This document shows, in pieces, positions 6,692 to 11,226 of a DNA stretch of 21,911 nt; the first letter of the stretch is position 1; each line of letters starts with the position of its first letter. The notes beneath the pieces are model-generated. The model saw only the letters and a program-made list of their open reading frames with translations. It had not been told where the DNA came from and did no database searches. The stretch comes from Asaia bogorensis (GTDB taxonomy: Bacteria > Pseudomonadota > Alphaproteobacteria > Acetobacterales > Acetobacteraceae). The translations under genes and the position numbers were made by a program. The stretch is taken from assembly GCA_945871455.1 (NCBI GenBank), contig CAMBXJ010000013.1, positions 1 to 21,911 on the forward strand, given 5' to 3'.

Positions 6692-7552
6692 TTATCCCAC
6701 CCGCACCGGAGCCGGCCGCCGGCCGGACATCGCCGCGGCCATACAGGCAACGGTGATGACACCCGCGCCGATGAAACCGACCAGATCGGGGGACTCGCCG
6801 AAAAACACCAGTCCCAATCCGGCGGCCATGATCAGCCGCGTGTAGTCGAACGGTGCCAGCACCGAGAGTTCCGCCGCCCGGATCGCCATCAGCCCGATAT
6901 ACAGGCCCGACGTACCGAGTACGGAGATCGCGAGCAGCCAGGGCCAGGTTTCCCATGGTGGCAAGGGTGTAAAGAGGCCAGGAACGCAGGCCACCATCGA
7001 CAGCGCCGTCAACCAGGCCATGATGGTCAGGGTGGAATCGCGGCGTTCCAGCACCTTGGTCGCCACCATGGCGCCAGCGTTCATCGCCGCGCCGGCCAGC
7101 GCGATCAGATAATCGGGGCGCCATTCGGCGAATGCGGGTTTGACGACGATCAGGCCTCCGATCACGCCAGCGACGATGCCAAACCAGCGGCCGAGGCCAA
7201 CATATTCCTTCAGGATTACAGCCGCGAGAATGCTGAGGAAAACCGCCCGCGTGTAGGTCACCGCGGTTGCATCGGCCAAGGGCAGTGCGGCGAAGCCGTA
7301 GAAAAGACCCCACAGCGAGACCATGGTCAGCCCGGCCCGGACGAATTGCAGCCACAACGTGCCAGTGCGGAAGACCGCAAGGCCGGTATTGCGTGCCAGG
7401 ATCAGCACCAGGACCACGCCCCCGAGATTGCGCATCAGGATGAATTGCAGCGGCGTCGCGGCGTGCCCGATCTGATGGATTGCGACGGTTTCGCCGGTCA
7501 GCAAAGCGTAAGAGATCAGGATAAGGATGATGCCGCGGTAGCGAGCGTTCAT
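6692..7552 (-). CDS. DMT-superfamily (EamA) transporter
   Basis: This is a 286-residue membrane protein with about ten hydrophobic segments arranged as two EamA repeats (roughly 6-140 and 150-272). The first half ends in EYVGLGRWFGIVAGVIGGLIVV, and the second has the matching LAPFDYTRLIMAAGLGLVFFGE...LVGFIGAGVI. Residues such as P34 in the second helix and the Y-T-R-A pattern after helix 4 are typical of drug/metabolite exporters of the RhaT/YedA/RarD type. The substrate is not predictable. The gene converges on the molybdoenzyme gene with only 26 bases between stops, so the two are independent units. The ATG at 7552 has only a weak ribosome site. Confidence 0.9.
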   Translation of the reverse strand: MNARYRGIILILISYALLTGETVAIHQIGHAATPLQFILMRNLGGVVLVLILARNTGLAVFRTGTLWLQFVRAGLTMVSLWGLFYGFAALPLADATAVTYTRAVFLSILAAVILKEYVGLGRWFGIVAGVIGGLIVVKPAFAEWRPDYLIALAGAAMNAGAMVATKVLERRDSTLTIMAWLTALSMVACVPGLFTPLPPWETWPWLLAISVLGTSGLYIGLMAIRAAELSVLAPFDYTRLIMAAGLGLVFFGESPDLVGFIGAGVITVACMAAAMSGRRPAPVRVG

Positions 7553-7799: not shown

Positions 7800-7907
7800 T
7801 ACTGTCGCGACGGTAGTGCGTGGGGTTACTGTCGCGACGGTAGTGCGCGGAATTATTGTCGCGGCAGAGGCGCGCGGGATTATTGTCGCGGCAGAGGCGC
7901 GCGGGCC
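7800..7907. repeat. Four-copy 27 bp tandem repeat (minisatellite)
   Basis: Four head-to-tail 27-base units start at 7800, 7827, 7854 and 7881. Units 1-2 share TACTGTCGCGACGGTAGTGC and units 3-4 share TATTGTCGCGGCAGAGGCGC, so the array looks like a duplicated pair that diverged or two successive duplications. Units 1-2 contain the palindrome GTCGCGAC. The array ends 4 bases from the stop codon of the DUF6065-like gene on the minus strand, so in that transcript it would form the start of the 3' untranslated region. The remaining gene-free DNA, 7553-7799, shows no gene or strong promoter that I can support. Confidence 0.9.
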
Positions 7908-7911
7908 TCGA

Positions 7912-8682
7912 TCAGTCGTCCTGCTTGCGCCGGCGTCGCGCGGACGTCGCATACAGGCCGGCGGGCCGGAAGTCCATTGTGTGCGGGGCCACGACAGTCT
8001 TGTGAAACGCGTTCCAGTCATCATCGGTCCAATCGGATGGGTCACCGATGATGTCTACGTTGTTCATCAGGGTCTCAGCGTAATGCGCACGTAAGATTGG
8101 CGTGACTTGTAGCAATGGAAGCTCAGCCCGAAGAAGAATCGGTATGTCTGTCTTCGTCAAGCGGACGTTAATAAAGAGCGGTCCAAACCACTTGTCGGTC
8201 TCGATAATTCCCTCGAAGTAGTCTATCCCCTGCGGCCGCGGGAAATTGGCCGGCTGGCGAATGAGAGTGCTCCATCCCGGCTTGGTGCGAACCACCCAGC
8301 CAGTCCAGATCTGGACGATGGCCGGCTCGATCGTGCTGAGCAGAAACGGCGGCGGATAGTTTGCGGCTTCGCCCGGCGCGATGGAGGCGAAATAGTCCGC
8401 GAAATCGGGAAATTGCGCTGATTTGAGCGGATACCACGTATCGCCGCCCTCAGGCGTCCAGAAGACACCCGTGCCGCCATCCCACATCAGGCTGAGGCCG
8501 ATCGGTGGGAACGCCCACCATCCGAACGCGGTGGCGGAGGTAAGCGGATCGCAGTACCGTAACGCCCTCGTCGGGATCAACCCGCCCGCCGCCCGATCCG
8601 CTCGGCGCGGTTCGGGGGCAGTGGGGATCAATCGATAGAACCGGAGAAGCGGTTCCTCGGGGTCGTTCGTCGGGTCCGACAA
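7912..8682 (-). CDS. DUF6065-like protein of unknown function
   Basis: No characterised function is known to me; the sequence resembles proteins that I recall as DUF6065. It has 256 residues, no signal peptide or membrane segment, and a basic C-terminal tail (RRRRK). Conserved-looking parts are GWWAFPPIGLSLMWDG (54-69), VQIWTGWVVRTKPGW (123-137) and YFEGIIETDKWFGPLFINV (155-173). The pattern from residue 127 to 195 (TG...P.G...R, then G-I-I-E-x-D, then a G-x-L-x-I-x-V strand and a late Q) recalls the core strands of dUTPase/dCTP-deaminase-like proteins; this is a guess at fold, not function. The start is a TTG two bases after the stop of the repeat-peptide gene, so coupled translation is likely. 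Base composition is less GC-rich than in flanking genes. Confidence 0.75.
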   Translation of the reverse strand: MSDPTNDPEEPLLRFYRLIPTAPEPRRADRAAGGLIPTRALRYCDPLTSATAFGWWAFPPIGLSLMWDGGTGVFWTPEGGDTWYPLKSAQFPDFADYFASIAPGEAANYPPPFLLSTIEPAIVQIWTGWVVRTKPGWSTLIRQPANFPRPQGIDYFEGIIETDKWFGPLFINVRLTKTDIPILLRAELPLLQVTPILRAHYAETLMNNVDIIGDPSDWTDDDWNAFHKTVVAPHTMDFRPAGLYATSARRRRKQDD

Positions 8683-8684
8683 AG

Positions 8685-8924
8685 TCAGGCCGTCCGCATG
8701 TCCTGGATATTCCCGGAACCGAGCTTCACGGCACCCTTATCGGAGATCGCGCGGGTCGGCAGCGCAACGCGCATGTCCTGGATGTTCCCGGAACCGAGCT
8801 TCACGGCGCCCTTGTCGGCGATCGCGCGGGTCGGCAGCGCGACGCGCATGTCCTGGATGTTCCCGGAGCCGAGCTTCACGACGCCCTTGTCGGCAATGCT
8901 GATGGGGGCGAGGGAGATTTTCAT
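8685..8924 (-). CDS. Small tandem-repeat peptide (three 25-residue repeats)
   Basis: The 79-residue product consists of a short leader-like segment, MKISLAPISI, followed by three near-identical repeats starting at residues 11, 36 and 61. Each repeat reads roughly DKGAVKLGSGNIQDMR followed by VALPTRAI; the third ends early in DMRTA. At DNA level the 75 bp period is nearly exact, indicating recent duplication or conversion. There is no signal peptide, cysteine or membrane segment. The ATG at 8924 has GGAGG eight bases upstream; an in-frame TTG five codons earlier overlaps that ribosome site and is unlikely to be the start. The gene immediately precedes the DUF6065-like gene. I do not recognise the family. 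The multi-copy layout resembles multi-core precursor peptides or multivalent binding repeats. Confidence 0.8.
   Translation of the reverse strand: MKISLAPISIADKGVVKLGSGNIQDMRVALPTRAIADKGAVKLGSGNIQDMRVALPTRAISDKGAVKLGSGNIQDMRTA
8695..8895. repeat. 75 bp in-frame direct repeats, about 2.7 copies
   Basis: Units begin at 8695, 8770 and 8845, each with CGCATGTCCTGGAT. The period of exactly 75 bases keeps the reading frame of the minus-strand peptide gene. Differences between copies are few and mostly silent, for example CTTATCGG against CTTGTCGG, which points to purifying selection or recent copying. The third copy is truncated where the leader begins. Confidence 0.93.
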
Positions 8925-8996
8925 TTTTGGATCCTCCAAGACCGACAGTTGTTGTTCGGTGATGGGCGGAGGCTAGGGCGCATCTCTCACTCTGGA

Positions 8997-9387: not shown

Positions 9388-11226
9388 ATGGACATTATCC
9401 AAAGGGACGCGGAACCGTCGAGTCTTGAAGGATCGCCCGGATCGGGGCCGGTCAGTCGCCGACTTGCGGCCATACTCGCGGCTGACATCAAGGGGTACAG
9501 CGCCTTGATGAACGACGATGAGGAAGCCACCCACAGCCGCGTCGGCGTGGAAATGGACAGGCTGGTCCAGGAAATCGAAAAATCCCAGGGCAGCGTCTTC
9601 TCATTTGCCGGCGATGGGCTGATGGCCGAATTCCCCAGCGCGGTCGAAGCGCTGCGATGCGCGCTCCGTGTGCAAAGCGATGCCGCCAGGAGGTCGGCCG
9701 CCCTGCCGCCGGATCGGCGGATCGAGTACCGAATCGGAATCAACGCCGGGGAGGTCCTGGTCCAGCGCGGCCATACCGGCGGCAATGCCGTCAACGTCGC
9801 GGCCCGCCTGGAACAGATAGCCACCCCGGGGAGTATATTTCTCTCCGAAGCGGTCTACGATCAGGTCAGCCATGCCGTTACCGCCAACTTCAGCAAGATC
9901 GGGCAGCCGCAGCTAAAGAACCTGCGCGACCCGGTGGTCGTCTTCTCGATCTCGGCGGAGGAATGTCAGAGCTGGGCCGGCACCCCGCCAATCGTGAAAG
10001 CCCGGCCCGCGATCCCGCCGGCCAGTACCGCGGATCGGCGTGCGTCCCTGGCCGTGTTGCCGTTCCGCACGATGCAGGACGACGAAGAAGGGGACTATTT
10101 CTCCCAAGGAATCGTGGACGACATCATCCGGATTCTGGGCGGCCTGAAGGACCTGCTCGTTGTTTCCCGCAGTTCCACACTGGGATTCGCCCGCCTGCCG
10201 GTCGACCTACGGCGCATCCGCCACGACCTGGACGTCCGCTACGTCCTGCATGGCAGCGTCCGTCGCTCCCGCGATCGGCTGCGTATCTCGGTCGAACTGA
10301 ATGAGGCCGAAACCGCCCGGGTGATCTGGGCGGAGCGATTCGACGGCGGCATGGCGGATCTGTTCGACCTGCAGGATCGCATCGCCCTGCAAGTGGCGAC
10401 CGCCGTTGCGCCACAGGTGTTGGAGCGGGAGTTGCTGCGGATCGGCCGCCTGCGCCCCGACAGCCTGACCGCTTATGACCTGACCTTGCAGGCGCTGGAT
10501 CTGATCTACCGGACCGATCGGGCCTCTTTCTTCAAGGCGCGGGACCTGCTGCGCCAGGCCACGGAGATCGAGCCGACCTTCGGGCCGGCCCATTGCCATA
10601 CCGCGTATTGGCACGTCACCTGTATCGGCCAAGGCTGGTCCGATGATCCACAGGCCGACGCCCGCCATGCCGCGGTGTCTGCCCTGGCCGCGATCGAGCG
10701 TGACGGGAACGACGCGCTGGCACTCGCGGTTTATGGCCATACCCAGTCCTATCTGAAAAAAGACTACCGGACCGCGACCGAATTCCAGGAGCGTGCCCTG
10801 GCCGCCGGACCGAGCTGCGCCTGGGCGTGGAGCTTCAGCAGCCTGACCCGCGGTTTCATGGGCGATGCGGAGACCGCACTGGTCCGGGCGCAACAGGCGG
10901 TGCGGCTGTCGCCGATCGGGCCGGATTGCTACTGGCATGAGCATGTGTTGTCGCAAGCCCACTACATCAACGGCAACTATGAGGAAGCCGCCAGCTGGGG
11001 CCGCCTGTCCGCCGCGCATAACGGCACGCAGACGTCCAATCTGCGGACCCTGATTGCCAGCCTGGTCGTGCTGGGACGCCTGGATGAGGCGCGGGAATTC
11101 GCCCAGCAACTGCTGGAGATGGATCCGGATTTCCGCGTGTCCCGGTTCCGCAAGAACACCCCGTTGCGAGGCGCCATGCGGGATGAATTCGCTCAACGCC
11201 TGCGCCTCGGCGGTTTGCCCGAATAA
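9388..11226 (+). CDS. Class III adenylate/guanylate cyclase with TolB-like and TPR regions
   Basis: This 612-residue, probably cytoplasmic protein makes a cyclic nucleotide, most likely cAMP. The cyclase homology domain covers about 22-190. D33 (AADIKGYSALM) and D76 (FAGDGLMAEF) are the two metal-binding aspartates, and N136 and R140 (NAVNVAARLE) are the transition-state residues, so it should be active. Residues 218-345 (SLAVLPFRTM...YFSQGIVDDI...VVSRSSTLGF...VRYVLHGSVRR) match the TolB-like domain common in alphaproteobacterial cyclases and CadC-like regulators. The C-terminal half has TPR-like helices (for example 360-400, 430-470, 545-580). The ATG at 9388 has a weak GAG-type ribosome site. 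There is no membrane segment. Two CRP-type palindromes upstream suggest cAMP feedback. Confidence 0.9.
   Translation: MDIIQRDAEPSSLEGSPGSGPVSRRLAAILAADIKGYSALMNDDEEATHSRVGVEMDRLVQEIEKSQGSVFSFAGDGLMAEFPSAVEALRCALRVQSDAARRSAALPPDRRIEYRIGINAGEVLVQRGHTGGNAVNVAARLEQIATPGSIFLSEAVYDQVSHAVTANFSKIGQPQLKNLRDPVVVFSISAEECQSWAGTPPIVKARPAIPPASTADRRASLAVLPFRTMQDDEEGDYFSQGIVDDIIRILGGLKDLLVVSRSSTLGFARLPVDLRRIRHDLDVRYVLHGSVRRSRDRLRISVELNEAETARVIWAERFDGGMADLFDLQDRIALQVATAVAPQVLERELLRIGRLRPDSLTAYDLTLQALDLIYRTDRASFFKARDLLRQATEIEPTFGPAHCHTAYWHVTCIGQGWSDDPQADARHAAVSALAAIERDGNDALALAVYGHTQSYLKKDYRTATEFQERALAAGPSCAWAWSFSSLTRGFMGDAETALVRAQQAVRLSPIGPDCYWHEHVLSQAHYINGNYEEAASWGRLSAAHNGTQTSNLRTLIASLVVLGRLDEAREFAQQLLEMDPDFRVSRFRKNTPLRGAMRDEFAQRLRLGGLPE

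Follow-up and report, generated by a model that had tools for sequence, protein, structure and literature searches.

A tandem-repeat peptide of Asaia bogorensis and its DUF6065-like partner look like an undescribed two-part peptide system

The window analyzed here is the whole 21,911-nucleotide stretch of Asaia bogorensis DNA (assembly GCA_945871455.1, contig CAMBXJ010000013.1). It carries a short gene for a tandem-repeat peptide, a DUF6065-like gene, an EamA-type transporter gene, and a divergent regulator-like gene (Table 1). The 79-residue open reading frame, its strand and coordinates, and its ribosome-binding site are as described in an initial annotation of this DNA; the full translation is MKISLAPISIADKGVVKLGSGNIQDMRVALPTRAIADKGAVKLGSGNIQDMRVALPTRAISDKGAVKLGSGNIQDMRTA. 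The 75-bp period reported there runs in exact register with the reading frame, and TRF placed it at 8695–8894 with period 75, 94% matches, and a score of 351. Over the full 75-bp frame, copy 3 is only 72% identical to copy 1 in DNA because the array stops within that frame. The separate 10-residue leader that had been proposed did not hold up: MKISLAPISI is the head of unit 1 and aligns to the linker VALPTRAI, and P0002, a two-unit relative, starts MKIDLPTPKIADKG. Since MKISLAPISI corresponds to the linker, the window peptide consists of three leaderless units. The repeat exceeds chance, with mostly synonymous differences between copies and a core that recurs at the equivalent place in many loci. 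The likely TTG start of the DUF6065-like gene sits two bases past the peptide stop, so the peptide and its partner may be translationally coupled. Tandem repeats of 27 bp were also seen at 7800–7905, in the gap separating the DUF6065 stop from the EamA gene (two overlapping TRF rows).

Table 1. Features of the repeat-peptide locus within the window.
Feature	Coordinates	Strand	Basis
Tandem-repeat peptide gene, 79 aa, three 25-aa units	8685..8924	-	ORF and translation
Core of unit 1, DKGVVKLGSGNIQD	8850..8891	-	unit extraction
Core of unit 2, DKGAVKLGSGNIQD	8775..8816	-	unit extraction
Core of unit 3, DKGAVKLGSGNIQD	8700..8741	-	unit extraction
Ribosome-binding site GGAGG, ATG 8 bases further on	8933..8937	-	sequence
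DUF6065-like partner, 256 aa, likely TTG start (8682)	7912..8682	-	Pfam PF19541, AlphaFold2, fold searches
EamA-type transporter downstream of partner, optional component	6692..7552	-	Pfam
Regulator-like gene, nucleotide-cyclase domain and TPR, divergent	9388..11226	+	Pfam Guanylate_cyc, TPR_2

A search of 5.8 billion sequences returned P0002 as the sole protein match to the whole peptide. Among 59 genomes searched, the peptide was present in two, the window genome itself and G032, a genome placed in the same genus by the genome search and carrying an array of at least four units that runs off its contig; viral contigs searched with the whole peptide gave no match. Homologues of the 25-residue unit therefore exist outside the window genome, and copy number varies among close relatives, with two units in P0002, three in the window, and at least four in G032. 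Two records titled Nitrosovibrio sp. (L056 and L058) hold the same contigs as G032; their closest relatives are Acetobacteraceae-like, which makes a mistaken title probable. Pfam, NCBIfam, PHROGs, and PADLOC gave no accepted family for the repeat peptides. Pfam matches below the cut-off were set aside as low-complexity noise, as was DUF3299 in locus L036 (25 bits against 22, with no single stretch passing), and PVV_CTERM in L039 fell below its cut-off.

The partner matches PF19541 (DUF6065) above the curated cut-off (E = 1.7e-13, 51.1 bits against 26.6) and phrog_7084 at 2.8e-7, and all 27 members of alignment A1 match PF19541 at E ≤ 0.01. Fold searches with its AlphaFold2 model (pLDDT 91.9) give a dUTPase fold, which the partner is predicted to adopt without intact dUTPase motifs. 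Neither the partner nor the A1 members matched PF00692 (dUTPase) in a Pfam scan; the consensus lacks the dUTPase motifs RSG and GFGSTG and retains a motif-3-like GI[VI]ETD, with D to E. Sequence profiles gave no significant match to dUTPases (hhalign probability 0.1, E 0.51), so the assignment of the fold depends on the predicted model. Many residues conserved at 93% or more in the peptide-linked clade are absent from canonical DUF6065 (e.g., R39, R42, W126, R142, E157, W165, and R249). The window genome contains three DUF6065 matches, including the window's partner, L036, beside which lies an array of at least ten TADAGKVRLGGFAPTLA units, and L037, beside a peptide containing LGGGFRLP. On a Rhizobium plasmid, a 36%-identical DUF6065 homologue is preceded by a peptide whose three repeats differ in sequence from those of the window; that peptide (WP_260111214.1, L034:5556-5942) is annotated from a far-upstream GTG, and MKHDDSLA (L034:5691) is the likelier start.

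The whole-peptide search yielded P0002 and one other genome; the wide family became visible only through the partner gene. GTDB representative genomes were scanned with alignment A1, the best 80 of 231 relatives being kept, and viral contigs contributed 25 loci; together with the loci found before, the window-like clade (at least 36% identical) comprised 109 distinct loci, or 108 once fragment L159 was dropped. A 14-residue core recurs upstream of these genes and reads approximately D-x-G-[KR]-[VI]-x-L-G; it comes in one to about 20 copies separated by variable linkers. The core matrix was built from 23 seed cores, the window's included and partly drawn from the tested loci, with a match defined as at least 12 bits, within 800 nt upstream and on the same strand. 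Such a match occurs in 89 of 108 loci, in 76 of the 90 whose upstream stretch is 400 nt or longer versus 15 of 1610 control segments, and in 0 of 24 canonical DUF6065 loci scanned (about seven further canonical loci lie outside the scan). Since the matrix seeds overlap the tested loci, we grouped the DUF6065 proteins at 60% identity into 13 clusters of up to 66 members and scored each locus with its own cluster held out; core matches were recovered in 63 of 90 loci versus 0 of 452 controls. Similarly, a motif-free test found a same-strand, in-frame repeat in 55 of 90 loci versus 1 of 452 controls. By eye, the 14 of 90 loci without a core match divide into about seven with divergent cores (e.g., L124, L053, L050, L127, L037, L079, and L044) and about seven with no clear peptide (L070, L076, L086, L092, L094, L111, and L146). 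The shortest unit seen is the 7-residue RTIGGGY, upstream of DUF6065 in L044 (2645-2833, place approximate) and L047. The window peptide is a divergent member of this broad peptide family, and it resembles the peptide of Bradyrhizobium lablabi (MIKIKLPTSRTADAGKVKIGEGGGID..). The pair is distributed mainly in alphaproteobacteria. In the IMG/VR loci L137-L148, a peptide with one or two cores accompanies a DUF6065-like gene and a response-regulator-like gene; terminase- and portal-like genes follow on many of these contigs, for which phage, prophage, or gene transfer agent are all possible.

The DUF6065-like gene, named as the only partner in the initial annotation, proved to be a constant one. 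A scan of 145 related genomes with an L036-type query located 57 array places after removal of antisense matches and of a single weak match interrupted by stops; 40 of them have a DUF6065-like gene no more than 1.2 kb downstream in the same orientation, and the remaining 17 run up to, or close to, a contig edge. Ten of these 17 end 2–11 nt from the contig end and five start 1–6 nt from the contig start; of the remaining two, one reaches the contig start, and in the other 165 nt separate the last core from the edge, the sequence after that core being a different one. Every array for which the DNA downstream was assembled had DUF6065. Because short-read contigs often break within arrays, draft genomes give a misleading picture of copy number and of seemingly orphan arrays. 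The two genes also diverge together: DUF6065 identity and core identity are correlated across 91 loci (Mantel r 0.70, against a maximum of 0.196 in 2000 permutations, uncorrected for species relatedness), and the nearest DUF6065 neighbor has the same residue class at core position 12 in 85 of 91 loci, with 40 expected. On a FastTree tree, position-12 class changes 8 times and copy-number class 30 times (without a shuffled control). The window DUF6065 is nearer to that of B. lablabi (62%) than to its own-genome paralogue (54%).

Units could be extracted in 91 of the 108 loci, with one copy in 21, two in 23, three in 12, and more in 35, up to a maximum of 19; L072, from Rhodopila globiformis DSM 161, has 21 core matches. 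These copy numbers are minima, as contigs break inside arrays and some arrays are masked. Modal unit length runs from 14 to about 30 residues in all but two loci; linkers differ between arrays while the core stays constant. In the last unit (n = 91), D1 is found in 83 loci, K/R4 in 82, V/I5 in 86, G8 in 90, and P12 in 54 or R12 in 26; no Cys, Ser, or Thr of the core is invariant. The peptide ends 0–6 residues past the final core in 71 of 91 loci. Single-base codon differences between units of one array number 385, 131, and 4548 at positions 1, 2, and 3, respectively, and 4592 between-unit differences are synonymous versus 472 otherwise; since counts are pairwise, long arrays weigh most. Taken per array, third-position differences outnumber the other two combined in 57 of 70; they fall short in 8 and tie in 5. 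In 16 evenly spaced arrays, mean unit identity is 0.87 in the core versus 0.69 in the linker. Together, the third-position bias and the greater conservation of the core than of the linker indicate that the reading frame is translated and that the core is under selection. Elsewhere in the family, peptide starts are short, unlike each other, and by eye without an obvious signal peptide, and in one family the core starts within a few residues of the peptide start.

The neighborhood supplies further, more sporadic components. A co-directional EamA gene lies within 900 nt downstream in seven loci, the window included, and the Rhizobium DUF6065 gene shares a 4-nt overlap with an MFS gene; most loci have neither protease nor exporter. 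A Pfam scan of seven window proteins and 19 neighbor representatives found no enzyme of a known RiPP class nearby, except a TldD-type metallopeptidase upstream in 14 loci (L036, L061, L064, L067, L072, L080, L087, L096, L097, L107, L113, L115, L123, and L135). TldD matures some RiPPs in other systems; here, apparent Acetobacteraceae synteny may account for the 14 loci, and we make no claim for TldD as a maturation protease. The window cyclase scores 34 bits against a cut-off of 400 for TIGR04510 ('putative peptide modification system cyclase'), a match set aside as domain similarity only. It matches PycC models at 4.7e-11, at the domain level, in PADLOC, where neither the peptide nor DUF6065 matched a defense model (Pycsar/anti-phage).

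The tight linkage, the co-divergence, and the conservation of the core indicate that the core is recognized by the partner; the two possibilities raised initially, a modified peptide and a scaffold of binding sites, both fit such recognition. The reading we favor, at slightly less than even confidence, is RiPP-like: a repurposed dUTPase-fold protein would recognize a multi-core peptide one repeat at a time and probably modify each repeat. The module would comprise short cores strung head to tail in one peptide together with a DUF6065-like protein of predicted dUTPase fold. The partner would bind each core, probably within what was once the nucleotide cleft or close to it, and the bound core would then be covalently modified or cut, giving several identical products per precursor; in some loci, an adjacent EamA or MFS exporter and a TPR regulator would complete the unit. 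As in RiPP precursors, a small gene is conserved as a pair with its cognate partner gene. Several observations count against the RiPP-like reading: no leader or follower distinct from the core was found (by alignment of the window start and by eye for the others), most loci have no protease or exporter, none of the Cys, Ser, or Thr residues that serve classic RiPP chemistry is invariant in the core, DUF6065 has no catalytic activity on record, and 14 of 90 loci have no core match, about half of them peptide-less by eye. Its stronger form, that DUF6065-like proteins would be the first peptide-modifying enzymes on a dUTPase fold, their cleft (C44, N146, E161, and D163 kept) processing leaderless tandem cores, is speculative and rather unlikely; if true, it would define a new RiPP-type class across alpha-, beta-, and gammaproteobacteria and phage-like contigs.

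A multivalent ligand, a reading we hold only a little less firmly, fits the linkage, the co-divergence, and the conserved core equally well. Repeated strand-forming motifs would then bind, cluster, or titrate the dUTPase-fold protein without any chemistry, copy number setting avidity or capacity. What all classes share is very short (Gly at position 8 in 90 of 91), like linear binding motifs, and the staphylococcal repressor Stl, a dUTP mimic, can occupy a dUTPase-fold active site (PMC9927489). However, multivalency has no need of the single cores found in 21 of 91 loci, phage-like ones among them, nor does a ligand readily account for exporters coupled in some loci or for peptides that mostly terminate directly after the final core. 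The RiPP-like reading is preferred over the ligand on these three points.

A third reading, which we consider improbable, makes the peptide a pro-pheromone whose signal copies are excised and sensed by the adjacent TPR regulator, with DUF6065 maturing or presenting the peptide. Multi-copy pheromone precursors occur in other systems, and the window cyclase-TPR gene belongs to a regulator cluster of 49 loci; 48 of 108 loci have such a regulator no more than 4 kb away, against 0/36, 0/41, 0/66, and 0/56 in the bins beyond 4 kb, although the regulator queries were drawn from these very loci. In front, the eight regulators scanned carry BTAD in six cases, a histidine kinase in L133, and a cyclase domain in the window. 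Yet only 19 of the 38 loci with 4 kb on both sides have the regulator, and most loci lack an exporter. A structural or surface repeat protein (solenoid or fiber) with DUF6065 as assembly factor would suit tandem repeats of this length with strand-like cores and is highly improbable, given that unit length varies around a constant core, a single core is enough in 21 of 91 loci, and the starts show by eye no obvious signal peptide. CsrA mimicry, suggested by the resemblance of the P-class VRLGxxAP to CsrA, was set aside as unproven: weak partial NCBIfam matches to PRK00568 lie far below the cut-off, and three peptides compared with the PDB matched no chain at E ≤ 10.

The peptide and the DUF6065-like protein thus look like an undescribed two-part peptide system. 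Among open-licence papers (closed ones may cover parts), we found none naming DUF6065 or PF19541 and none tying the dUTPase fold to a peptide or RiPP; those on repeat precursors concern fungi and graspetides, and one on Rhodopila and RiPPs is unrelated. The analysis links an unnamed, fast-changing peptide family to DUF6065 and provides DUF6065 with a predicted fold. Should the peptides prove to be modified, they would bring a new chemistry to the dUTPase fold and open up many multi-core precursors that have no leader; if they are unmodified, they offer a clean natural system for relating repeat number to binding. Either way, the function of DUF6065 is directly testable using two small genes, and copy number, from one core to about twenty, provides a built-in experimental series.

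Compared with known systems, the window protein shares C44, A50, G54, T133, N146, G158, E161, N172, and P195 with canonical DUF6065 (PF19541; phrog_7084) but is only 20–24% identical to it, and none of the 24 canonical loci has the peptide core. Unlike trimeric dUTPase (PF00692), the partner is longer, with an inserted helical stretch that bears the invariant C44. The dUTPase–Stl pair of staphylococcal islands (PMC9927489) places a protein partner at a dUTPase-fold active site, an arrangement that is only proposed for the present pair; Stl, however, is a repressor protein rather than a repeat peptide, and we claim no sequence relation. The multivalent graspetides plesiocin, chryseoviridin, and thuringinin carry near-identical cores and linkers in one short precursor, encoded beside a partner gene (PMC13003496). 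Unlike these, the window-type peptide is leaderless, and its partner is a DUF6065 protein of predicted dUTPase fold rather than an ATP-grasp ligase; like them, it combines several near-identical cores, linkers, and an adjoining partner gene.
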